Shown here: positions 8,864-21,176 of the stretch, piece by piece
How the letters are laid out: each line of letters begins with the position of its first letter
Numbering within the stretch: position 1 is the stretch's first letter
Origin: a virus
DNA length: 21,265 nt
IMG/VR virus record: IMGVR_UViG_3300044641_009961
Span: 1-21,265 of that record
Strand: one strand, 5' to 3'
Notes under the pieces: model-generated
Database searches by the model: none
What the model was told of the DNA's origin: nothing
What the model saw: only the letters and a program-made list of their open reading frames with translations
Position numbers and translations under genes: made by a program

Positions 8864-9152
8864 TGGCGTTTTCCTCCACAGCGACAATAGACATTGCTTC
8901 AGCAACTTTTAAAATCGCTGTCTTTGACGCCCTTAAATCATCATGTACCCTTCTAATTTCTGGGCTGTCGAAAAACAATGGTATTTCTAATACTTTCGAA
9001 ATCGATTCGCTTCTTGAATCTAAGAGCTCTATACATTCCTCGATTGTGTCTTCTACATTCAATAAAATTTTTGCAAACTTAAAACAATAAAAAACAAGGA
9101 AAAAGTTTAATAAAATCGAAATAAAAAAAAGTATTAAAAAAAAATATATCAT
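8850..9152 (-). CDS. Small membrane protein with one N-terminal transmembrane helix
   Basis: A 100-residue protein. Residues 2-27 are almost wholly Phe, Ile, Leu, Val and Tyr (IYFFLILFFISILLN onward), a clear membrane segment with no signal-peptidase-like site. The remainder is a soluble, acidic, helical tail (VEDTIEECIELLDSRSESIS). The start is ATG 9152, overlapping the upstream glycosyltransferase stop by 4 bases, with GGA about 9 nt upstream. The stop lies inside the start region of the sigma gene. The membrane codons contain runs of nine and eight T, so slippage or assembly error could change the frame here. No family is recognised. Phage inner-membrane proteins of this size occur as spanins, holins or superinfection factors, but nothing in the sequence selects one. 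Confidence 0.75.
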   Translation of the reverse strand: MIYFFLILFFISILLNFFLVFYCFKFAKILLNVEDTIEECIELLDSRSESISKVLEIPLFFDSPEIRRVHDDLRASKTAILKVAEAMSIVAVEENANDDR

Positions 9153-10300
9153 AGTATTTTTTCCATCAATCTATCATATCTTTCGAAAATAGATTCATGT
9201 GAATACTCTTTGCGTATTATTAAGCCCAATTCTTTAGACCATTCTACCGGCTTAATTTGTGACTCAAAAGCTTTCTTCATTCTCTTTTTCGCATCGAGTT
9301 CCCTAGGCATTGCCCACTTTGAGCCTTCGACGAAAATGTTACCATCTTGTTTTTGTTTAGGAACTTCAACTAAGTCATACTCTACCTTTGAAAAATGACC
9401 GCGATTTAAAAATTCCAAGTGACCAGACCAATTCGTCGCGATGATTGGTAAATCAGCGGCCGCGGCGTCGACGAGAGGTAAACCGTACCCTTCTCCGCGA
9501 GTAAAAGATATCATACAATTTACTTTTTTCGACTTCATTAAACCAGCGACTTCTTTTTGAGTCATGTCTCCGTTTAATAGATAAATTTTTGGATATTCTC
9601 CCTTTCTAACTTCTGATATTAGTTTTTGAAATAAACTTAGAAGGGATTTTCTATGAAAAATACAATTTGTGCCTAAATTAGACTTGACTATTAGACCAAC
9701 GTCTTTATTTCCGGCGAATTCTTCGCAGAACCATTTAACGGAATTAAATAAATTTTTTCTATCGCTTTCTATGTCTGTGCCTGTAATTTGGCCAAATAGT
9801 AAAAAATTATATTTTGTTACGACTTCGCTTAGTTCTAAGCCTGTGGTCGTTTCATCTATAAACATATTGTACGCCTCTGGTATCACGGAGACACCCGTCG
9901 TAACTCCTCCACCAGATATCAAAGAGTTTTTCGAAAACTCAGACGGTACAATTACATGATTTACTTGGTTACAAGCATCTTTCCATTGCTTACTACACCT
10001 ATCCGTTTCTACCCCAGCAGTAACGCCAATATTAAACTTAGCTAGCGTTGTGTCCCATTCATTAGGCAATTGAATTTGTAGACTCAAATCTGCTAGTGTT
10101 TCGAAAGGAACGGAGCGATTCATAATTTCTCCGACCAATCCGCCTAAATCATTTTTATCCAAAAACCACGGAGTGATACCCCAATTTAAAATTTGACATC
10201 TTACGTCATGACCCCGGGTTAAGGCCCACTGAAACACCTGTCTTGCGTGTTCTCCGTAACCAGACTTTGATAAAACAGGTCCTCTTACTAAAACTTTCAT
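9149..10300 (-). CDS. GT-B glycosyltransferase (GT4-like)
   Basis: A 383-residue protein. The N-terminus is a Rossmann-like GT-B start (MKVLVRGPVLSKSGYGEHAR), with VNHVIVPSEFSKNSLI at 113-128 as in GT4 enzymes. The C-terminal half has the nucleotide-sugar site TRGEGYGLPLVDAA (267-280). This is the E-x7-E motif with Asp as the second acid (E270, D278), and then PIIATNWSGHLEFL follows. It should transfer a sugar from an NDP-sugar, probably in the cytosol, with acceptor unknown. I start at ATG 10300, which overlaps the previous stop (ATGA) and has GAGG upstream; an upstream non-ATG start would add 13 basic residues before the normal GT start. Together with the next gene upstream it forms a pair of different GT-B enzymes. 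Confidence 0.85.
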   Translation of the reverse strand: MKVLVRGPVLSKSGYGEHARQVFQWALTRGHDVRCQILNWGITPWFLDKNDLGGLVGEIMNRSVPFETLADLSLQIQLPNEWDTTLAKFNIGVTAGVETDRCSKQWKDACNQVNHVIVPSEFSKNSLISGGGVTTGVSVIPEAYNMFIDETTTGLELSEVVTKYNFLLFGQITGTDIESDRKNLFNSVKWFCEEFAGNKDVGLIVKSNLGTNCIFHRKSLLSLFQKLISEVRKGEYPKIYLLNGDMTQKEVAGLMKSKKVNCMISFTRGEGYGLPLVDAAAADLPIIATNWSGHLEFLNRGHFSKVEYDLVEVPKQKQDGNIFVEGSKWAMPRELDAKKRMKKAFESQIKPVEWSKELGLIIRKEYSHESIFERYDRLMEKIL

Positions 10301-11541
10301 AGTACATTTACCTCGAAATTTTTTCTCTTTTCTTTCCAAGTGTCGATGAGATCATTTAATGTTGTATCCCAAGCATCAATAACTTTTTGATATCCAAACT
10401 CAGTTAGAGCGTATTGTCTTGCCTTCGCTCCAAGACGACGTCGACCTTCTTTACCAAGTTCGTAAATTTTCATAATACCTGTTGCTGTCGTTTCGACAGA
10501 AACGTAATCTTCATAAATGTAAGGAACTCCTTGAGATCCTACGAGAGTTTTTAATTCAACAGGCAACGCAGCGCCGTTTTCTTCTCCTGTATATGGATTA
10601 AGGACTTGCCTTGTTAAGCCACCTGTTTTCACTGCGACGATTGGATTACCTACGTTCATGGCTTCAAGAGTAGCCAAACCGAAACCTTCGGCATACGAAA
10701 TATTAATACAAAAATCACTAACATTGTGAATAATATTCATTTTATCGAATTCGACGCGCTCTTTACTAAATGCGATATTTTCTTCTATACCAATATTTCT
10801 AGATACTTCGACAAGATTAGGACCTTCTTGATCGAATGGATCGGTATGCATTATTAGTGTTGCTTTTCTATGACCATGCTTTCTTTCGAGTTCATCGACG
10901 AATAATTTCCACGCCCAAATAACGTCTGATGGTCTCTTTCTTCGCGCGTTTCTATTAATCCATAGCCCGACAAAATGATCAGATCTATGAGCACCTAATA
11001 GTAGTATTTTATTTTTTTGTCTATCCTGCTCAGACATCGGATAAAACATACCAGGAGGTAAAGAATGGGGGATGAAATTAGTCTTATCAGGAAATAAATC
11101 ATTACAAAATTCATAAGTAAGATACGAATGACAATTTATAAGATCTGTCGCTTCGTACATCGAAGAATTAAACTTGGGTACAGGATAATTATCCCAAACG
11201 TGCCACCAGGCTATTGGACAAATTTGATGCACTTCGTCTTCCATTTCGAAAAGCCAAGTAAAAAATCTTGGATCCGTGAAAATAAGAAGAGCGTCGGGTC
11301 TTTCCGTCGCAAGAGTTTCTCTTAATAAAGATCTATTTCCGAATCCATCTATCGGTTTAATAATAAAATCTTCGTTAACGACGACAGTTCTATAATCAGC
11401 GTGCTTTATGGCTGCTCCAAACTGTCTAAACGTCCAGGTTCCTTTTTGTAATAAACCGTTTACAAGATGTCTCGTCTGATTTCCAACGCCTGATGGTGAT
11501 AGCGCATGATCTGAAAGTATTAATACTTTTCGCTTAGTCAA
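10297..11541 (-). CDS. GT4-family glycosyltransferase
   Basis: A 414-residue protein from the TTG start at 11541, or 421 from an ATG at 11562. I prefer the TTG because GAGG lies 5 nt upstream of it and no Shine-Dalgarno precedes the ATG. The N-terminus has KVLILSDHALSPSGVGNQTR, a typical GT-B donor-domain start with a Gly-rich loop. The C-terminal half has SYAEGFGLATLEAMNVGNPI with the E-x7-E retaining GT4 motif (E285 and E293 from the TTG). The middle segment ARRKRPSDVIWAWKLFVDEL is common in long GT4 proteins. It is expected to add a sugar to a glycan or protein, with acceptor unknown. The ribosome binding site lies inside a predicted hairpin (see 11542-11575). Confidence 0.85.
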   Translation of the reverse strand: MTKRKVLILSDHALSPSGVGNQTRHLVNGLLQKGTWTFRQFGAAIKHADYRTVVVNEDFIIKPIDGFGNRSLLRETLATERPDALLIFTDPRFFTWLFEMEDEVHQICPIAWWHVWDNYPVPKFNSSMYEATDLINCHSYLTYEFCNDLFPDKTNFIPHSLPPGMFYPMSEQDRQKNKILLLGAHRSDHFVGLWINRNARRKRPSDVIWAWKLFVDELERKHGHRKATLIMHTDPFDQEGPNLVEVSRNIGIEENIAFSKERVEFDKMNIIHNVSDFCINISYAEGFGLATLEAMNVGNPIVAVKTGGLTRQVLNPYTGEENGAALPVELKTLVGSQGVPYIYEDYVSVETTATGIMKIYELGKEGRRRLGAKARQYALTEFGYQKVIDAWDTTLNDLIDTWKEKRKNFEVNVL

Positions 11542-11575
11542 CTTAACCTCACAGTATATCATTATCGAGGTTAAG
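11542..11575 (-). promoter_or_regulatory. Inverted repeat that would hide the ribosome binding site of the GT4 gene
   Basis: On the minus strand CTTAACCTCG (11575-11566) pairs with TGAGGTTAAG (11551-11542): nine Watson-Crick pairs plus one G-U, with a 14-nt loop. The 3' arm contains the GAGG Shine-Dalgarno of the TTG start that follows directly, and the loop holds the alternative ATG. No U-run follows, so it is not a standard terminator. It lies in one of the two widest gaps of the window (57 bp before the TTG). Control of translation is inferred, not shown. Confidence 0.45.
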
Positions 11576-12417: not shown

Positions 12418-12834
12418 CTATATTTCGAATATATCTTTTACACTTTCGTATATCTTTTTCTTTAAAGAAGTCAAACTATAATCGTGCTCTCTTCTACAAA
12501 AATAAACTTCTTTATTTAAGAAATCACCTGTATATTTTTTATTTATATAATCAGATCCTAGAATTCTCACATCAAATTTTGTAGTTTTTAAGAGTTCAAC
12601 TAATTCGCTTTCTGTAGAATATCTTATAACCTCGTCAACATATTTTAGAGATTCAAGTATTTCTTTGCGCTCTTCCCAAGTCTGAACGGGTTTTAATTTG
12701 TTCGCTCTGTCGATTGTTGGATCATCTTGCAAAGCGACTATTAGGTAGTGACAAATTTCTCTTGCTTCTTTAAACATCCTGACATATCCAGGATGAATTA
12801 AATCGAAAGATCCTGCTGTTAAACCAATTCTCAT
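12418..12834 (-). CDS. Cytidylyltransferase-like protein (TagD/RfaE family) with HPGY active site
   Basis: A 138-residue protein, the normal size for glycerol-3-phosphate cytidylyltransferases. The nucleotidyltransferase start is GSFDLIHPGYVRMFKEAR, but the usual HxGH reads HPGY (H14, Y17). The middle segment, DDPTIDRANKLKPVQTWEER, is typical of the family. Near the end HDYSLTSLKKKI (about 116-127) stands for the ISTT-type motif. It would join a phosphorylated polyol or sugar to CMP or AMP. The substrate cannot be read from sequence, and no kinase partner of the RfaE type is nearby except the APH-like domain of the three-domain protein. The ATG follows the gmd stop by 2 bases with no clear Shine-Dalgarno, so translational coupling is likely. 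Confidence 0.82.
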   Translation of the reverse strand: MRIGLTAGSFDLIHPGYVRMFKEAREICHYLIVALQDDPTIDRANKLKPVQTWEERKEILESLKYVDEVIRYSTESELVELLKTTKFDVRILGSDYINKKYTGDFLNKEVYFCRREHDYSLTSLKKKIYESVKDIFEI

Positions 12835-12836
12835 AT

Positions 12837-13811
12837 TTAAACCATATTTTTTTTCACTAATTCTAAATCTGCCTCATACATTAACTTCGCTAATTCTTTA
12901 AACGTAGTTTTCGGTTCCCAACCAAGTTTTTGTTTTGCCTTTGTATAATCGCCCATTAAAATCGGAACTTCATGGGGACGATATAATCTTTCATTAATTT
13001 TTAGGTACTTATCAGGATCTAAATTAGCTAATAAAAATACTTCATCTAGAAACTCTCTAACTGTATGGGTTTGATTCGTCGCGACGACGTAATCATCTCC
13101 TTTGGGTTGTTGCAACATTAGCCACATTGCTTCGACATAATCTTTGGCGTAGCCCCAATCTCTTAGAGCGTGGAGATTACCGAGTTCGATATGATCTTGA
13201 AGACCACACTTAATTCGAGCAGCAGCCAACGTAATTTTTCTTGTTACGAATGTTTCTCCACGTCGAGGACTTTCATGATTAAATAAAATGCCCGATGATG
13301 CGTGAATTTTATATCCTTCTCTATAGTTTCTAGTCAAACCATGCGCGAATACTTTAGAACAAGCGTAAGGAGAAGCGGGCTGCAATCTTGTGAATTCATT
13401 TTGTGGAACGTCTGGGTTGTCACCATACATTTCTGACGATGAAGCTTGATAAAATTTTGCATCTGGTTGCATCAAACGTACGCACTCTAACAATCGAAGC
13501 GGTCCCATCGCGTCGATTTGTGCCGTTTCTTCGGGTACGTCGAATGAAACCCTAACATGGCTTTGAGCTGCTAAATTGTAGACCTCGTCGAATTTATATT
13601 GTGAAAATAAGCGATAAAAACAACTAGAGTCTTCCATGGAACCATATTCTACTTTAAAATTAGAATTTGAAAATAAATGATCGATTCTAGAAGTTGAAAT
13701 AATAGACGTCCTTCTTTTTAGTCCTATTACCCTATAGCCTTTTTCCAAAAGTAATTCGGCCAAATACGAACCGTCTTGACCAGTTACACCCGTTATTAAT
13801 GCAGTTTTCAA
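12837..13811 (-). CDS. gmd: GDP-mannose 4,6-dehydratase
   Basis: A 324-residue protein, slightly shorter than the usual 340-375. It converts GDP-D-mannose to GDP-4-keto-6-deoxy-D-mannose using bound NADP. Visible features are the nucleotide loop GVTGQDG (8-14), KRRTSIISTSRIDHL (the GMD insert that binds NADP), AAQSHV at 81-86, the catalytic block QASSSEMYG (122-130, with E127), Y149-x3-K153, and FNHESPRRGETFVTRKI, which is diagnostic for GMD. The start is TTG with AGGGG about 9 nt upstream, which fits because the family begins exactly at KTALITG. The fcl gene ends 2 bp before, giving the pair needed for GDP-L-fucose. Confidence 0.96.
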   Translation of the reverse strand: MKTALITGVTGQDGSYLAELLLEKGYRVIGLKRRTSIISTSRIDHLFSNSNFKVEYGSMEDSSCFYRLFSQYKFDEVYNLAAQSHVRVSFDVPEETAQIDAMGPLRLLECVRLMQPDAKFYQASSSEMYGDNPDVPQNEFTRLQPASPYACSKVFAHGLTRNYREGYKIHASSGILFNHESPRRGETFVTRKITLAAARIKCGLQDHIELGNLHALRDWGYAKDYVEAMWLMLQQPKGDDYVVATNQTHTVREFLDEVFLLANLDPDKYLKINERLYRPHEVPILMGDYTKAKQKLGWEPKTTFKELAKLMYEADLELVKKNMV

Positions 13812-13813
13812 AA

Positions 13814-14749
13814 TTAAATTCCCCTTATTTTTGGATATTTTACTATAAAATGGTCTATCGTTTCTTTTAAACCTACACTAAGTGGTGTGTATTTATCATT
13901 CCAGCCCATGGAAAATAATTTCTTATTCGAAGAAGATTTTTCATATTGACCTTCTGGTTTCGAACTATCAAAAATAATTTCTCCTTCATATTTAATTTCT
14001 TCGGAAATTAAAGTTGCTAATTCTTTAATAGAAATAAATTCTTGATTGCCAATATTAACAGGAGATTCTTCGTTATAATTTCTAGCCAACCAAGAAATTA
14101 TTTTAGCTGCATCTTTTGCGTATGTAAATTCTCTAATTGGTCGCCCAGAACCCCAAACGATTACAGATTTCGATCGACTAATTTTTGCTTCATAAAACCT
14201 TCTTATTAACGCAGGAATTACGTGGCCTAATTCAAGATCATAATTGTCTTCTATACCATATAAATTATTTGGAATAACTGTAATAAAATTACAGTTATAC
14301 TGTTGTCTATATGCCTTCGTTTGAACATCTAGCATTCTTTTTGCGTATGCGTATCCGAAATTTGAAAAATGTGGAGGTCCAACATGCAATTGATCTTCAG
14401 TTAGTGGATATTTTACGTAATCTTTATCCGGATAGATGCATGTCGATAGAATCGAAACTAATTTTACATTAGCTTCCTTACATGCGTTCATAACATTAAG
14501 ATTCATTAAAATATTTTCGTTAAAAAAATCACAAACATAATCTGTATTTGCTTTAACGCCTCCAACGCGAGCAGCACAATGAATAACAATTTCTATATTA
14601 TTTTTTAATATTTTATCTTTTAAATAATCAAAAGCACTATTTTTTGTTAAATCGCAATCTTTTGAATTCACGCCGATTGAATTACTGTTTAACTTGACTA
14701 TTTCGCTACCAAGCAATCCGTTGGCGCCTGTAACTAGTATTTTAGACAT
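13814..14749 (-). CDS. fcl: GDP-L-fucose synthase (epimerase/reductase)
   Basis: A 311-residue protein of normal size. It turns the Gmd product into GDP-L-fucose by 3,5-epimerisation and NADPH reduction at C4. Features are GANGLLG (8-14), HCAARVGGVKAN (57-68, characteristic of the family), STCIYP (102-107, with the catalytic Ser102 and Cys104), FGYAYAKRML with Y133-x3-K137, IPNNLYG, and ELGHVIPALIRRF carrying the catalytic His. The late block VWGSGRPIREFTYAKD is the substrate loop of the family. The start is ATG with GGA 6 nt upstream. The stop is 2 bp from gmd. It lies downstream of the C-methyltransferase gene in one transcription unit. Confidence 0.96.
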   Translation of the reverse strand: MSKILVTGANGLLGSEIVKLNSNSIGVNSKDCDLTKNSAFDYLKDKILKNNIEIVIHCAARVGGVKANTDYVCDFFNENILMNLNVMNACKEANVKLVSILSTCIYPDKDYVKYPLTEDQLHVGPPHFSNFGYAYAKRMLDVQTKAYRQQYNCNFITVIPNNLYGIEDNYDLELGHVIPALIRRFYEAKISRSKSVIVWGSGRPIREFTYAKDAAKIISWLARNYNEESPVNIGNQEFISIKELATLISEEIKYEGEIIFDSSKPEGQYEKSSSNKKLFSMGWNDKYTPLSVGLKETIDHFIVKYPKIRGI

Positions 14750-14764
14750 TTTTAATCCAACGAA

Positions 14765-15982
14765 TTATTTACCTATAACTTCGAATTTTGGGCAAGGAAC
14801 AATAAATTTTCCGCCTCTTTCCAAAAAATCATTTTCCCTATCTAAAAATTCGCTTATAAAATGCCACGGCAAAACAAGTAAGTAATCTGGGTTTTCTTGC
14901 CTCATTTGAGCTTCGGAGAAGATGGGAATGTCTGTCCCTACGGTTCTCTTTCCGTATTTATATGGACTTCTTTCAGCTATACCATCTATCATCGTATTAT
15001 CTAACCCAAAGTATTGCAAAAGGGTATTTCCTTTTGTACTAGCTCCATACGCCCAAATAATTTTTCCTTTTGCTTTTTCTTGCTTTATAAAAGAAATCGT
15101 TTTATTTTTTAATTCTTCTATGTCATCGAAGAACTTTAACCAAGATTCTTTTTGATCAAGTTTTAATGCGCGTTCGTATTCTAACGTTGATTGCACTCTA
15201 TAGTGCGCAACATCTCTATGTGGTTGAGTTCCAAACTTTTTAAAGTTTGCAGTGGATTTCATAGCATAAATTCTAAACGATCCACCATTAACCGTATTTA
15301 ATTCGCAATCCAGTATTTCGAAACCATTTCTTCTAAAAAGTTCCTTTATATTAAATAACGAATAATAATAAACATGTTCATGACATATATTATCGAAAGC
15401 CATTTGTTGTATCATTAGAGGGGTATAACTCATCTGTAATACCCAAAGACCATCGTCGTCTATAATTTCATGTACATCTTTTATAAATGAATCGGGATCA
15501 TCTAGGTCATAAAACATAGCTATCGTTGTAACAACTTTTGGTTTTTTAGAAGAAAATTTCGTTCTCTTATAAGCTTTCGAACTAAAATAATCCTGAATAA
15601 TTTCGTCTGCGTGTTGCGTAGATTCAAGTTTATAAGAATCATCGGCAGGATCGATACCTACTCTAAAACACGTATTTCCTACATGCTTTAAAAGCGTACC
15701 ATCATTACATGCGATATCGAGCCAAACATCTTCTTTATCTATTTTAATAATTTTTTTTATAGATGTCACAATTTCGCTTAAATCATTCGACATACTAGCG
15801 TTAATACCTGAACGGTACCAATATTTTCCATACATGAAATCTTTATTCGCTACTTTTTCAAGTCTTACGAATCCGTTTTCATCTAATAATAGATTCATTT
15901 CTACCTTATCACATCTAGGATTTTCGTCGGGCGACAAAAAATCAGAAACGTACATTTCGCCTAAACTAAATAATTTTTGCAT
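14765..15982 (-). CDS. NDP-sugar C-methyltransferase (TylC3/NovU-like) lacking N-terminal zinc ligands
   Basis: A 405-residue protein. SAM binding shows as WLDIACNDGTLL (about 87-98), catalytic centre CHEHVYYYS (190-198) with the general-base His, NGGSFRIYA (222-230), and the C-terminal Rossmann-like domain AYGASTKGNTLLQYFGL (301-317) with KRTVGTDIPIFS. These belong to the two-domain C-methyltransferases that methylate C3 or a neighbouring carbon of a 4-keto sugar. The family normally starts with a zinc domain of two Cys pairs. Here the first pair is absent because the protein begins at the LGE stretch, and the second pair reads Asp/Asn (LLLDENGFVRL). An in-frame TGA four codons upstream of the ATG rules out an earlier start. 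It overlaps the preceding gene by 17 bp. Confidence 0.88.
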   Translation of the reverse strand: MQKLFSLGEMYVSDFLSPDENPRCDKVEMNLLLDENGFVRLEKVANKDFMYGKYWYRSGINASMSNDLSEIVTSIKKIIKIDKEDVWLDIACNDGTLLKHVGNTCFRVGIDPADDSYKLESTQHADEIIQDYFSSKAYKRTKFSSKKPKVVTTIAMFYDLDDPDSFIKDVHEIIDDDGLWVLQMSYTPLMIQQMAFDNICHEHVYYYSLFNIKELFRRNGFEILDCELNTVNGGSFRIYAMKSTANFKKFGTQPHRDVAHYRVQSTLEYERALKLDQKESWLKFFDDIEELKNKTISFIKQEKAKGKIIWAYGASTKGNTLLQYFGLDNTMIDGIAERSPYKYGKRTVGTDIPIFSEAQMRQENPDYLLVLPWHFISEFLDRENDFLERGGKFIVPCPKFEVIGK

Positions 15983-16937
15983 TTTTCTCTCTCATTTCGA
16001 ATTGTATCATTCTATCGACTAAATCTTCGATCGTATATTGAGTAAACCAATTTAATCGACTTCTAATTTTTTCTGTGTTTGCTCTTACATATTTCGTGTC
16101 GACACTTCTGGTGTATATAAGATTTTGTTTAATAATTAATTCTTTATTTAAATTTAATTTTTTTAAAACTAAAGAAACAAAATCTTCTAATTTTACGAAG
16201 CTTCCTGTTCCAACTACATAATCTTCGCAATCTTTTTCTTCCAATATTAAAGAAATAGCTTTCATATAATCAATGGCGCATCCCATGTCTCGATAGGAAT
16301 TTAAGTCGCCTAATTCCATTTGATGTAATTCGCCTCGAAATATTTTCACAGCATTTTTTATTACTTTTTTTGTGAAAAAATTGTTTTCTCGACGCTCAGA
16401 TTCATGATTAAAAAGAATTACAGAACTACATTTAATATTTTTTCTTTCTCTTAATTCAAGTATTAGTTGATCTACGGTGTTCTTAGCTATGCCGTACGGA
16501 TACAAAGGACTTCTTATTGATTTTTCATTTATAAATTCTTCGCCGCAATTTCCAAAAACAAGTGAAGAAGAAGCTTGCACAAATTTTATATCTAATTTTG
16601 TATCACATAAAAACTGTAATATATTAATGGGAAATTGAGCATTAACCTTAAATATTTTATCTACATCGCGCCAGGCATCGAAAACATTGGAAATAGCTAG
16701 AAGATTACAAATCGCATCTGGTTGTTCTTCTAATAAGATTTTCTTTATATTGTCAAAATTTTCGATGTCTATTTCTTTGAAAATAATATCTTTATTAACA
16801 GCTTCGATAAGTTCTATTTTTCTTTCTTCTTTCGTATTTTCTCTTATGCAACAAATAACTTCGTGTCCCTTCGAAATAAGTTCTTTAGTTAAAAAGAAAC
16901 CATCTTGACCTAGCGCGCCAAATATTAAAACCTTCAT
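15966..16937 (-). CDS. GMD-like short-chain dehydrogenase (NDP-sugar epimerase/reductase), not a canonical dehydratase
   Basis: A 323-residue extended SDR protein clearly related to GMD: GALGQDG (7-13), CCIRENTKEERK in place of the GMD NADP insert, FNHESERRENNFFTKKV near 167-183, and Y148-x3-K152 (YGIAK). The GMD catalytic Glu is missing: the SSSE block reads QASSSLVFG (121-129), with Leu126 where Glu stands in 4,6-dehydratases. It therefore probably reduces or epimerises a keto sugar, like GDP-4-keto-6-deoxymannose reductases, and does not dehydrate. The ATG follows the previous stop by 4 bases with a weak GAAG site. It is a diverged paralog of gmd in the same cluster (shared motifs, many changed residues). 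The substrate is probably GDP-linked. Confidence 0.8.
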   Translation of the reverse strand: MKVLIFGALGQDGFFLTKELISKGHEVICCIRENTKEERKIELIEAVNKDIIFKEIDIENFDNIKKILLEEQPDAICNLLAISNVFDAWRDVDKIFKVNAQFPINILQFLCDTKLDIKFVQASSSLVFGNCGEEFINEKSIRSPLYPYGIAKNTVDQLILELRERKNIKCSSVILFNHESERRENNFFTKKVIKNAVKIFRGELHQMELGDLNSYRDMGCAIDYMKAISLILEEKDCEDYVVGTGSFVKLEDFVSLVLKKLNLNKELIIKQNLIYTRSVDTKYVRANTEKIRSRLNWFTQYTIEDLVDRMIQFEMREKNAKII

Positions 16938-16941
16938 AAAT

Positions 16942-18801
16942 TTATACTTCTTCTATAAGTTTTAATGCCAAATTTATTAAGTTTAATTTAATAGAATCTG
17001 GTTGCATAGGAACGCAAGTAAAAATAAGAGACGCCGTTAAGCCTTTTAATATTTTTTCGTCGACTTGAATTTCTTTAACGAAAAAATTTCTTAATGAATT
17101 TAGCTTATTCTCGTCAACGATTTGTTTTCTAATAATAAAATCATATCCAATTAAAGATTGATAAACTTTTGAGTAATCGTAATTAATATCGCCTGTAATA
17201 GTAAGGGTATTCCCGACAAATCCTCGCATATCAATAAATTTAATTCTATTATTTTTATCTATGATTATGTTAGTAAATACAGGATCTCCGTGAATATTTC
17301 CTCTTTTTGCTATATTCGAATTTTCGTATTCTAATAAGAAATTCATAATTGAAGAATAAATTTTATCAGTTAAAGAAGTTTTTTGAAAATTAAAATCTGA
17401 ATATCTTTCTTTTAATTTTTTTGAATAGTTTAATAAAATATCGATATTTTTATTTTCTATTTCTGATGAATGCAAAACGTTAAGAGAATCGACCAAATAT
17501 TCTAGGTGGGATTTCTGGAGAATTCCTGTGACTAGCATTTTTGAAAACGTTGGACCATCTATTTTTTCTAATTCTAGAGATATTGAATTATTTATTTCTT
17601 TATGCGATATTAGCTTTGGAAATAAATACTTGATACTATCTGGTGAGTTAAGATACCAATAAAGTTCTCCTCTAATCGCATCATTAGAGGACGATTTAAT
17701 TATTGCTGTCGAAGTTTCATCTAGATTATTATAGTCTCTAGAAATCATCTCATTACAATATACACCCGTTAATTTTTCTAGATCGTCATATGCGTTAATA
17801 GCTTTATCGTCAATATAAAAATCAGCGTAAGGTTTTCCGAAATATATTTCGTCGTATGGTATTTCAAATTTATCTAGTGTTTCGAAAGTAATTTTTCCTA
17901 TGTCTGCGACCAATCTGCCAACATTTCCACCATGCGTTTTCATTCGACGAGCAGTTTGCAAAATAATCGTATGACCATTTGATTTAAGATATTTTAAAAA
18001 TTCTATATTTTTTATTATTGGTTCAACAGTCGTATAATCACCAGCTATTTTAGGTTCTGATACCAGAGTATTATCTAGATCGAAACAAAATCTAAGTTTT
18101 TCGCTCGTCTTAAATCCTTGCAACTGAGACGGTGTTCCTAAACAAGTAAATTGTTGCGTTTTTTGGGCGTAAACTTCTTCTCCTGCTTCTATCATTTCCT
18201 GAAATACTGTAGAAATATAGTATTCGTTATTTATCAATCGACTCTTATTCATGATTTTGTCGATATATTTTAAAGCAGTAAGCCCGTCTTTGAAACAATA
18301 AGTTCCTACTGAAGCGAAATTAGATATTTTGCTTTTCTCTATAATTTTTTTTACTTTTTCGTTTTCTATTTCGATATAAGAATATATCGGAGTATTTCCA
18401 GTATCCTCGAAATAGAAAATAGAATTTTTATTTTTTGGGATTGAATTTATGTGATTTTTATCATAAAAAGTATCTGAATCGCAAATTACGAATTGTTCAT
18501 TTAAATTAAAAACGTGATTTTCTAATGCTAATTTAATCGTATGGGCTGCGCCTTGCGTATTTTCGTTTAATACAATCGTTTTAATTTTATCGTGATATCT
18601 TGACCTTAATCTTTCGGTTAAACGTTCTGATTCGATGTCTGACCTATGCACTATCACAACGTTATTAGAGTTGCAATCTATGTTATCTAGCAACCAAAAA
18701 AGAATTTCTTTACCGTGCGCTTTAATAAGTGGCTTAGACGAAAGATACCCCACTTCTCTAAATCGTTGTCCAACGCCCATCATAGGAATAATAACGTTCA
18801 T
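16942..18801 (-). CDS. Three-domain protein: sugar nucleotidyltransferase - EcbF/BcbF-type HAD - APH/choline-kinase-like kinase
   Basis: A 619-residue protein. Domain 1 (1-230) is an NTP_transferase fold: GVGQRF (9-14), KP (23-24), DSD (108-110) and LGTPSQL (221-227). Domain 2 (about 236-350) is a HAD phosphatase of the capsule EcbF/BcbF kind: FDLDNTLV (D241, D243), GDYTTVEPI, LQTARRMKTHGG (T283), K323 and D331-D332, all four motifs intact. Domain 3 (about 370-619) is an aminoglycoside-phosphotransferase/choline-kinase-like kinase: HGDPVFTN (H504-N511) and IDMRG (D524). Together these give kinase, phosphatase and nucleotidyl transfer, the chemistry that activates a sugar phosphate or choline-like group (compare HddA-GmhB-HddC or LicA-LicC). 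The start is ATG with GGG upstream. The substrate is unknown. Confidence 0.85.
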   Translation of the reverse strand: MNVIIPMMGVGQRFREVGYLSSKPLIKAHGKEILFWLLDNIDCNSNNVVIVHRSDIESERLTERLRSRYHDKIKTIVLNENTQGAAHTIKLALENHVFNLNEQFVICDSDTFYDKNHINSIPKNKNSIFYFEDTGNTPIYSYIEIENEKVKKIIEKSKISNFASVGTYCFKDGLTALKYIDKIMNKSRLINNEYYISTVFQEMIEAGEEVYAQKTQQFTCLGTPSQLQGFKTSEKLRFCFDLDNTLVSEPKIAGDYTTVEPIIKNIEFLKYLKSNGHTIILQTARRMKTHGGNVGRLVADIGKITFETLDKFEIPYDEIYFGKPYADFYIDDKAINAYDDLEKLTGVYCNEMISRDYNNLDETSTAIIKSSSNDAIRGELYWYLNSPDSIKYLFPKLISHKEINNSISLELEKIDGPTFSKMLVTGILQKSHLEYLVDSLNVLHSSEIENKNIDILLNYSKKLKERYSDFNFQKTSLTDKIYSSIMNFLLEYENSNIAKRGNIHGDPVFTNIIIDKNNRIKFIDMRGFVGNTLTITGDINYDYSKVYQSLIGYDFIIRKQIVDENKLNSLRNFFVKEIQVDEKILKGLTASLIFTCVPMQPDSIKLNLINLALKLIEEV

Positions 18802-18844: not shown

Positions 18845-19438
18845 TCAAAAACTGTTTATAATATCGATAGGATATTTTCCATCGCATTGAATTTTTAAAA
18901 ACTTTGTAAGATCGACATGTACGGGATCGATCCACCAGTCTTCGAACGCACATTCCTTTCGTTCGAACCCAGGTTGTTGAACGTATACATTCGAGCACAA
19001 TAAATGATATCCTAATTCACTAAGAATTTTTCTTTGTTCTCCTCTATATTTGTCACCATATAGATACGCGTCGTGTTCTATAGTAATGACTTTAAAGCGA
19101 TATAAATCGTGTGGTAATATCTTAAGAACATCAACACTAGCTTGATCAACATCGAGGGAGAGATAATCTATAGAATTAGGAGCATTACATTGATTAAAAA
19201 TAGAAGAATAATTTAGTTTAAGAGCATCAGCTATTATTAAAGTACACGATCTTGTACTATATGAAGACGCATAATTCTTATCTAATTCTACGCATATTCC
19301 GTTCCACGAATAAGCTTCGAATAAAGCAGTATTATTAGAAGAATAAGCTCCACAGCTACCAATGTCTAAATAGAAACCATTATTTTTTCCATTATTAATT
19401 CTTATCGCAAATTCATCTTGTTGAGCATCTGAATACAT
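18845..19438 (-). CDS. FkbM-family methyltransferase
   Basis: A 197-residue Rossmann methyltransferase. The SAM site shows as GFYLDIGSCGAYSSNNTALF (21-40, with D25), the acidic residue after strand 2 as GICVELD (47-53), and a later conserved block as IDYLSLDVDQASVDVL (90-105). EDWWIDP near 166-172 is common in phage and LPS-cluster FkbM proteins. These enzymes O-methylate sugars or similar acceptors. Start ATG with AGGA at 6-7 nt. It is followed by a 43-bp AT-only gap before the three-domain gene. The acceptor is most likely a sugar hydroxyl of the glycan built by the neighbouring enzymes. Confidence 0.83.
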   Translation of the reverse strand: MYSDAQQDEFAIRINNGKNNGFYLDIGSCGAYSSNNTALFEAYSWNGICVELDKNYASSYSTRSCTLIIADALKLNYSSIFNQCNAPNSIDYLSLDVDQASVDVLKILPHDLYRFKVITIEHDAYLYGDKYRGEQRKILSELGYHLLCSNVYVQQPGFERKECAFEDWWIDPVHVDLTKFLKIQCDGKYPIDIINSF

Positions 19439-19455
19439 TTTTATTCCTATAAATT

Positions 19456-20184
19456 TTAAAAAATGAAATCTTTTCTTTCTTTCGTACTGGATATCGACGA
19501 GGCATTATCTTTGATAGATTTTTTTACTTTTATTTTCGATTTCGTAATATGGTAACCTAATAAAACTTCAGGATTAAATTCAATACCTAACGCGTAGTAG
19601 TTTTGTAAGTGATTAAAGACATTAGAGTAGACGTTCATATTTTCACTATTACTATACGCTATATGATCGTTTATGGCATAAAAAGTGTGCTTACAATCAG
19701 ATTTCGTATGCAAATACTCGAGATCATTTAATGAAATTTCGAAATTTTCTGAGAAAGTATAATCAAATCGGCATCGAATTACGCAATCATATTTAAAATT
19801 ATTTTCATTTTCGAACGTCGACTTTAATTCATTCGATTTTAAAATGGAATAAAACATACTTTGTATATTAAAAGAAGGTCTAGGATTCGTGATTGGATTA
19901 TAGCAAGAAAAACGATGTGAATCTCTATATTCTTTTTCAAAGTATTTCTGGGCTTCAAAAGTATATTTCTTTGGCTTATAGTTTTCTAATATAAAGTTTT
20001 CAGTATCTTCGCAAAAAATATCCGTCAAAACATCTTTTCGAAATGGTTTTCCTCGAACACTTTCGTCAATCCAAACGTGAGCAAATACATCGCAATTATT
20101 AATATCAATTACTTTTTCTTTTATACTATAAAAAGATTCTTTTAATCCTCGAGGTTGACCAGATAAACACAAAGCTACTTTCAT
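19456..20184 (-). CDS. Putative glycosyltransferase-like protein, DUF family seen in surface-glycan clusters
   Basis: A 242-residue protein. The N-terminus MKVALCLSGQPRG and the later CDVFAHVWID (31-40) are a pattern I associate with uncharacterised glycan-cluster proteins. YDCVIRCRFDYTF (132-144) resembles the R-x-D site that these proteins use in place of a classical DxD. No signal peptide or membrane segment is visible. The ATG overlaps the previous stop (ATGA) and GGA lies 6 nt upstream. Its place between a GT-like gene and the FkbM methyltransferase supports a glycan role. The enzyme activity is not proven; I am fairly sure of the gene but not of its reaction. Confidence 0.7.
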   Translation of the reverse strand: MKVALCLSGQPRGLKESFYSIKEKVIDINNCDVFAHVWIDESVRGKPFRKDVLTDIFCEDTENFILENYKPKKYTFEAQKYFEKEYRDSHRFSCYNPITNPRPSFNIQSMFYSILKSNELKSTFENENNFKYDCVIRCRFDYTFSENFEISLNDLEYLHTKSDCKHTFYAINDHIAYSNSENMNVYSNVFNHLQNYYALGIEFNPEVLLGYHITKSKIKVKKSIKDNASSISSTKERKDFIF

Positions 20185-21176
20185 AGTATTTCCAACATCG
20201 CGCGTGCTCTATTCACGTAAGTGTGATAATCTTTAATATAATTTTGAGCATTAATTATAAAACCATAATCATGCAATTTATTTTCTACATCATAATATAA
20301 CTGCGTTATATTAGAATTATAAACTAAATTTCCCTCAAGCTCATTATAAACCTCGTGAGAATTTGTCATGCCTAGGTGACCGTAGCTCATATTTTTATAA
20401 ACTCTACAAGGAACGTGACCCCATTCTATCATATTTTTTGATCGAACATCGAATCCCATAAGAGAACGTTTTGAATATTCTATGTAAGACTCTTCGTTTA
20501 ATGGATTCGAATAAAAATCATTAAATTTAAATAATACACCATTTTTTTCACATTCTAAAGCAAATTGATTTATTTCTTCGACGTTTGAATGCGCACCATC
20601 GCTACTTAAAGTTCCTAAAAAATACACAATATTTTCTCTAGGAAAATAAACGTCTTCTTCTTTGAATTCATGAGGAAGTAAATTCGTAGCCCAACCCATA
20701 TATAACTTATCGAAATCATCGATTCGATATTTGCATTTTCCATTTTCGAAATCTACGACTCTATTTGTAGACTGTTGATAGTAGCAACCTCTATTAATTT
20801 GAGGCGTATTTTTTTTATCTAATTTATAAATATAGTTTGGATGATTGACAGAAATTGCGTTATATCTAACATCCACAAAACGCCCAACATTTCCAACGTA
20901 TTTTTGTGGATCATATGCACAATGAACATAATATATCGAACTTTTATTTAAGGGAATAAAAGAATCATCATAACCTTCTGCCCAAAAAATACAATTAGAA
21001 AAATCGAAATCATTATCAGGCGGTTTATTTTCAAACCAATACGTATCGAATCCCATCGACTTAAAAGCTCTATACATGGAATTCCAAACATAGCTTATCG
21101 TATTTGACATGCCTGGCTTCATCGGCCAACCCCAGATAATAACCTTATAATGCTTCTTAGCTAGTTCTAAATTCAT
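20181..21176 (-). CDS. Putative GT-B glycosyltransferase-like protein, unusual family
   Basis: A 331-residue protein I cannot place in a named family. It starts with a Rossmann-like strand, YKVIIWGWPMKPGMSNTISY (10-29), and has a second one at ENIVYFLGTLSSDGAHSN (181-198). It ends with a donor-site-like region, GHVPCRVYKNMSYGHLGMTN (243-262), similar in layout to the x-R-x-[FY]-x-x-[ML]-[SA]-x-G block of GT-B enzymes that select a donor. No E-x7-E motif is seen. The start is ATG 21176 with AGGA 10 nt upstream; the upstream gene ends 2 bp before it. Its place in the cluster favours glycosyl transfer. Confidence 0.65.
   Translation of the reverse strand: MNLELAKKHYKVIIWGWPMKPGMSNTISYVWNSMYRAFKSMGFDTYWFENKPPDNDFDFSNCIFWAEGYDDSFIPLNKSSIYYVHCAYDPQKYVGNVGRFVDVRYNAISVNHPNYIYKLDKKNTPQINRGCYYQQSTNRVVDFENGKCKYRIDDFDKLYMGWATNLLPHEFKEEDVYFPRENIVYFLGTLSSDGAHSNVEEINQFALECEKNGVLFKFNDFYSNPLNEESYIEYSKRSLMGFDVRSKNMIEWGHVPCRVYKNMSYGHLGMTNSHEVYNELEGNLVYNSNITQLYYDVENKLHDYGFIINAQNYIKDYHTYVNRARAMLEIL

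Follow-up and report, generated by a model that had tools for sequence, protein, structure and literature searches.

A single gene in the window analysed here, a 21,265-nucleotide stretch of viral DNA, raises the question of whether one phage polypeptide could make an activated glycosyl donor by itself. A first-pass annotation had described the product as a nucleotidyltransferase (NTase), a HAD phosphatase and a kinase joined in one protein. The gene occupies positions 16942-18801 as a single open frame on the minus strand with an ATG start and encodes 619 aa, while the plus-strand translation of the same interval is riddled with stops. Matches to the T4-type late promoter pattern TATAAATA do not exceed chance expectation, and no copy lies just upstream of the gene. 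All residues named in the annotation are where it had placed them: GVGQRF at 9-14, DSD at 108-110, D241, D243, T283, K323, D331-D332, H504-N511 and D524. The protein and its domains are as follows.

16942..18801, minus strand: NTase–HAD phosphatase–APH-fold kinase fusion, 619 aa (open frame, domain matches, AlphaFold2 model)
18109..18801, minus strand: NTase domain, aa 1-231 (PF00483, fold alignment with 4evw, invariant columns)
17758..18102, minus strand: small HAD phosphatase domain, aa 234-348 (TIGR01689, 1xpj, 9iqw, phrog_1238, invariant columns)
16945..17754, minus strand: APH/choline-kinase-fold kinase domain, aa 350-619 (model of the isolated domain, fold matches, PF01636 in relatives)

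Taken individually, the domains are of known kinds, and the presence of three intact domains on a single chain is borne out by sequence matches or confident models for each. The NTase domain matches Pfam PF00483 (NTP_transferase) over aa 9-217 with E 3.2e-10 and a score of 40.4 bits, above the gathering cut-off of 21.2, and its model aligns with 4evw in VIA-align with a Z of 28.3 and an rmsd of 2.3 over 230 residues. The HddC-type structures 5xhw and 6jq8 follow behind 4evw in profile matching (E 3-4e-10), and MurU and LicC are both among the fold matches, while a search of NCBIfam gave no match between the window protein and the MurU family NF045761. The assignment of the central domain is based on sequence matches to solved HADs (1xpj profile, E 3.7e-24; 9iqw, E 1.4e-17) together with the full-length model, and phrog_1238 matches the same region with E 5.5e-24. 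The EcbF-BcbF model TIGR01689 (NCBIfam) matches aa 237-345 with E 4.3e-20 and scores 72 bits, below its curated cut-off of 162; judged by sequence, the HAD domain is thus related to EcbF/BcbF and, by the cut-off rule, not a member of TIGR01689. We found no relevant literature on EcbF/BcbF and no confirmation in the literature of arabinose in the Pasteurella type B capsule, which is not used here.

The C-terminal region of the window protein reaches the cut-off of no curated family, its one match to a curated kinase family being ABC1 at a below-cut-off E of 0.0078, and it also matches PHROG families that have no assigned function. The APH family PF01636 is matched in 5 of 28 fusion relatives. 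Modelled alone, the domain gave a pLDDT of 93.3 and a pTM of 0.91, and the model aligns with structures of APH, choline and sugar kinases at Z 16-19. The hallmarks of APH/choline kinases, namely the Lys-Glu pair, HxDxxxxN, a later Asp and the APH fold, are all present. The best fold matches are tied (4r77 LicA, Z 18.8; maltokinase, 18.6; APH(4), 18.4; methylthioribose kinase, 18.1) which, with the isolated model, identifies the domain as an APH/choline-kinase-fold kinase and leaves its substrate class unfixed. AmgK structures are absent among the 50 kinase matches listed, which has no bearing either way. An AlphaFold2 model of the entire fusion, built from an alignment of 28 sequences, has a mean pLDDT of 89.4 and a pTM of 0.60, indicating that the domains are confident and that their mutual arrangement is uncertain.

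To place the fusion among its relatives, viral contigs were searched with an alignment of four fusions, which brought in some thirty further loci that match over the full length; 37 ORFs in the collected loci bear all three domains (duplicates counted, the window counted twice). We aligned 28 full-length fusions, comprising the window protein and 27 homologues that have the same domain order and are 31-52% identical to it. The key residues of the NTase (G9, G11, R13, K23, D108, D110, E155 and K156) and of the HAD domain (D241, D243, T283, K323, D331 and D332) are invariant in 28/28 sequences, as are K369, E379, D506, N511 and D524 of the kinase, whose remaining key residue, H504, is kept in 27/28. 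Homologues with the same fusion therefore exist, and the near-complete invariance of their catalytic columns argues that they are not dead copies. The recurrence of this order in 27 further full-length proteins, together with these columns, likewise argues against a chance fusion. The two findings that would have spoken against the annotation, a domain lacking fold support or dead sites in most relatives, are thus at odds with what the domains and the alignment contain. Sugar NTases of such families usually carry an Asp in a 'DxGTP' motif; at that position (column 220; C220 in the window protein) the fusion family has Cys or Val throughout, so the second metal site of the NTase may differ. Mean pairwise identity among the 28 fusions is 59% for the HAD domain, 45% for the NTase and 40% for the kinase.

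A midpoint-rooted tree of the three domains joined, covering the fusions along with split sets from phages and bacteria, groups every fusion in a single clade (support 0.97), within which the proteins of the window and L024 are sisters. Given the midpoint rooting and the high divergence of some split rows, a single fusion event is likely but falls short of proof. Genome contigs searched with the window protein alone yielded no relative, and the same search with the alignment yielded separate bacterial HADs and split sets only; on the bacterial side, the records behind six bacterial loci were searched. A structure search added one full-length relative, A0A1V0SE67 (BFVD) of Indivirus ILV1, which has 635 aa and 41% identity over its whole length. 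It is an NTase-domain protein like that of the window, but its record is that of a giant virus and not of a phage, which may reflect either transfer between phage and giant virus or a mis-binned contig.

The genetic company of the fusion bears on its function. The phage of the window is T4-like, with baseplate wedge and late-sigma-like genes, and the fusion sits in its glycan island, in a run with genes for a GDP-mannose 4,6-dehydratase, a fucose-synthase-like reductase, a C-methyltransferase, a further epimerase and glycosyltransferases:

9149..11562, minus strand: two glycosyltransferase genes (phrog_2170, E 7.7e-15 and 9.8e-20)
12418..12834, minus strand: cytidylyltransferase-like, RfaE domain II / TagD type (PF01467, E 1.3e-14; TIGR02199, E 1.2e-21, below cut-off)
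12837..13811, minus strand: GDP-mannose 4,6-dehydratase (TIGR01472, 435.7 bits, above the cut-off of 415)
13814..14749, minus strand: GDP-L-fucose-synthase-like reductase (NF047922, E 4.5e-74, below cut-off)
14765..15982, minus strand: sugar C-methyltransferase (PF08484, E 3.5e-46)
15966..16937, minus strand: NAD-dependent epimerase/dehydratase (PF16363, E 2.4e-63)
18845..19438, minus strand: FkbM-like methyltransferase, weak (PF05050, E 4.9e-4, below cut-off)
19456..20184, minus strand: 'SGQPR' family, phrog_13607 (PHROG, E 2.2e-31)
20181..21176, minus strand: conserved protein, possibly glycosyltransferase-like (homologues in two other fusion loci; no match in Pfam or PHROG)

Donor synthesis, as proposed in the first-pass annotation, fits with the nucleotide-sugar dehydratase, reductase and methyltransferase genes of this neighbourhood and likewise with the glycosyltransferases of the window and of its relatives. 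The clusters of the two glycosyltransferases at 9149..11562 are present in 15/27 and 12/27 fusion loci, and phrog_13607 recurs beside the fusion in 7/27 (window included). No SIS-domain isomerase is encoded in the 21-kb window, whose record may be a fragment; among the 35 records, SIS isomerases occur in three Straboviridae records and, as one weak match, in a fusion contig, so the context does not name the sugar. Positions 14778-15523, part of the C-methyltransferase gene, have 71% DNA identity to LR756501, an uncultured 735-kb phage and the only one in the phage collection searched with a near DNA match to the window.

The surroundings of the relatives are varied, which indicates that the fusion is not bound to any single acceptor. 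In many, the gene is followed by GT61, RfbH and RmlB-like dehydratase genes and then by either a ThDP enzyme with PanB or split transketolase-like genes. L025, L031, L041 and similar loci carry, downstream of the fusion, RfbH-like, RmlB-like, acetolactate-synthase-like ThDP enzyme and PanB genes in what is a phage glycan island; in L003 and L040, split transketolase-like genes replace the ThDP enzyme/PanB part.

A different association marks a deep branch of the family, in which translational coupling links the fusion to genes for a TET/JBP oxygenase and a DNA-glucosyltransferase-like protein:

L004:6683-10609 and L053:8690-12606: operon of ParB_N-like, DNA-glucosyltransferase-like, fusion and Tet_JBP genes
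L002:98-2703: the last two genes only, at the contig end

In L004 and L053 the fusion is flanked by a phrog_25200 gene and the Tet_JBP oxygenase gene, with 4-base overlaps across the glycosyltransferase-fusion-TET junctions, and a ParB_N-like gene precedes them (the Pfam match in L004 lies just below cut-off). The phrog_25200 gene of L004 is also related to beta-glucosyl-HMC-alpha-glucosyltransferase (E 3.1e-5). Tet_JBP genes among the 35 records are confined to these three fusion contigs, and the operon looks like a DNA hypermodification cassette. Neither the three-way fusion with its conserved active sites nor its spread or TET/JBP link was described in the literature searched, a body that left outside the main earlier survey of TET/JBP and base-modification operons (Iyer 2013).

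The same three activities also recur as adjacent separate genes in phages and bacteria, which indicates that the set behaves as a unit. The cyanophage S-SKS1 (L009) and L005, L058, L067 and L073 have kinase, NTase and HAD as neighbouring genes; these loci share the three activities with the fusion but are unfused. They carry a five-part set of RibB (3,4-dihydroxy-2-butanone-4-phosphate synthase), kinase, NTase, HAD and a TalC-like aldolase, in which the RibB of S-SKS1 is fused to the NTase. This set suggests an unusual sugar derived from ribulose-5-phosphate or formed by aldol addition; RibB and the aldolase were not seen in the fusion neighbourhoods. In other T4-like phages the NTase and kinase share one protein of about 560 aa, alongside which a separate HAD and a SIS phosphosugar isomerase are encoded. 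In bacteria, a HAD and an NTase-kinase-like protein occur in capsule-type loci, and the surface-polysaccharide loci of Legionella, Rickettsiaceae, Citrobacter and Caballeronia hold the domain set of the fusion, with an EcbF/BcbF-type HAD and beside WavE-type genes, divided among two or three genes. The order is kinase-HAD-NTase in Legionella (L109), beside WavE-type genes, and in a Rickettsiaceae contig (L015), where the kinase is assigned by position and alignment. In Citrobacter and Caballeronia the N-terminal NTase signature is degenerate, unlike that of the fusion; NTase-kinase-like proteins with such a degenerate signature lie beside HAD and WavE-type genes at L110:6375-7985 and L111:6273-7817.

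Building on the computed domains, their intact conserved active sites and this genetic company, we propose, with a probability of roughly 55%, that the fusion is a trifunctional enzyme that makes an NDP-sugar donor by acting as phosphatase, then as anomeric kinase, then as NTase. A single substrate, which would be a pentose, hexose or heptose phosphate of central metabolism, would pass through the three domains in turn. The HAD domain would strip the phosphate borne away from C1 of this host sugar phosphate, the APH-fold kinase would place a phosphate on the anomeric carbon (C1) of the sugar thus released, and the N-terminal NTase would couple the sugar-1-phosphate to a nucleotide. The resulting NDP-sugar may then feed the glycosyltransferases of the same island, with a surface or virion glycan as the target, and the phage would in this way make its own activated donor, as the annotation had suggested. 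Uniting phosphatase, kinase and NTase on one polypeptide is sensible for an enzyme that has to relocate a phosphate, in what would be the logic of MupP-AmgK-MurU within a single protein, and the donor-making view is supported by the presence of such sugar kinases as maltokinase and methylthioribose kinase among the fold neighbours of the kinase domain.

The main rival, to which we assign a distinctly smaller but real chance, places the kinase first: phosphorylation at C1 would turn a sugar phosphate into a bisphosphate, from which the HAD would take off the distal phosphate before the NTase completes the donor. This is the order of the GDP/ADP-heptose routes, implied by the first-pass annotation. 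Small HADs without a large cap, such as GmhB, have sugar bisphosphates as their substrates in the heptose route, which favours this order, as does the kinship of the NTase to the HddC-type 5xhw and 6jq8; the NTase is also the one domain that shows kinship with a GDP-heptose enzyme, HddC. However, no GHMP-family kinase is matched by Pfam in any of the 28 fusions and the kinase model has the APH fold, while TIGR01689 is the sole HAD model matched at E 1e-3 or better in the window protein, pointing to EcbF/BcbF and to no GmhB family. As the 21-kb window, whose record may be a fragment, holds no GHMP kinase, GmhB-type phosphatase or SIS isomerase, the parallel with the GDP-heptose route is not supported beyond a loose analogy. 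The known APH-type route, that of AmgK, moreover uses the free sugar (PMC5371407).

The tie with choline and aminoglycoside kinases makes a non-sugar alcohol a possible substrate. Choline, ethanolamine, glycerol or another alcohol would then be converted to an NDP-alcohol as by LicA-LicC, the HAD acting on a precursor, a reading we regard as unlikely. LicA heads the kinase fold list, LicC is among the NTase fold matches, and a bacterial kinase relative weakly matches the choline kinase family PF01633 (E 0.0022), a family without a match in the 28 fusions. But the Z of LicA is tied with those of sugar kinases, RB69-type relatives accompany a phosphosugar isomerase and arabinosylated DNA, L025-type loci hold the deoxysugar enzymes RfbH and RmlB-like dehydratase, and the deep fusion branch holds a DNA-glucosyltransferase-like gene. 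The resemblance to LicA-LicC claimed in the annotation thus stands for the folds of kinase and NTase and goes no further than fold, the kinase being tied with several sugar kinases; LicA-LicC is itself a choline-specific pair of two proteins with no HAD.

It is more improbable still that the domains serve different pathways or substrates of the island and are fused for co-expression only: their divergence rates do differ, and the HAD is separate in the RB69-type version, but the three activities remain associated in fused and split form alike, across phages, bacteria and several gene orders. Repair of RNA or DNA ends by a kinase, phosphatase and NTase, to which a weak HAD match to the polynucleotide kinase family phrog_415 (E 7.8e-5) might point, can be practically dismissed, as the kinase has the APH fold and not a P-loop, the NTase is of the sugar type and the neighbours are glycan genes.

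If the donor-making reading is correct, a phage would need no more than a single gene, and a sugar phosphate common in its host, to obtain a donor that the host may not have, and the fusion, with all three active sites on one chain, offers a tractable protein for finding the substrate. More tentatively, and at somewhat less than even odds, the fusion may be a portable virus-borne enzyme that converts a sugar phosphate to an NDP-sugar, was fused once, and was recruited both to T4-like surface-glycan islands and to TET/JBP DNA hypermodification operons, where oxidised bases would receive the sugar that it supplies; the missing donor steps in phages with arabinosylated DNA would thereby be named as well. 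The TET/JBP-linked copies would then predict glycosylated bases in phages that have perhaps never been analysed.

Among described phage systems, the nearest to the fusion is RB69 ORF53_52c together with a HAD encoded apart from it. Like Thanatos TH1_060, ORF53_52c combines an NTase and an APH-like kinase on one chain with an EcbF-like HAD nearby, and all of these parts are present in the window fusion. The RB69 type differs in keeping the HAD separate, whereas in the fusion it lies between NTase and kinase; its phage members are about 22% identical to the window protein; a SIS isomerase is present in all three Straboviridae records and not in the window (records may be fragments); and the target is DNA for the RB69 type and a glycan island for the window phage. 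According to published proposals, the RB69-type module is the source of the UDP-arabinose used in DNA arabinosylation (PMC6024577, PMC13390438), although the full arabinose-donor pathway has been described as uncharacterised (PMC13390438). TH1_060 is required for phage propagation; in vitro assays detected no activity for it, and xylose-1-phosphate yielded no product (PMC12838424). In function, a closer precedent by analogy than either the GDP-heptose route or LicA-LicC would be the series formed in peptidoglycan recycling by MupP (HAD phosphatase), AmgK (anomeric kinase) and MurU (NTase) (PMC5371407). The likeness lies in the set of HAD phosphatase, kinase and NTase, with an APH-fold kinase of putative sugar specificity in the fusion; MupP, AmgK and MurU differ from it in being MurNAc-specific products of three separate genes, with MupP a HAD_2-type phosphatase (PMC5371407).
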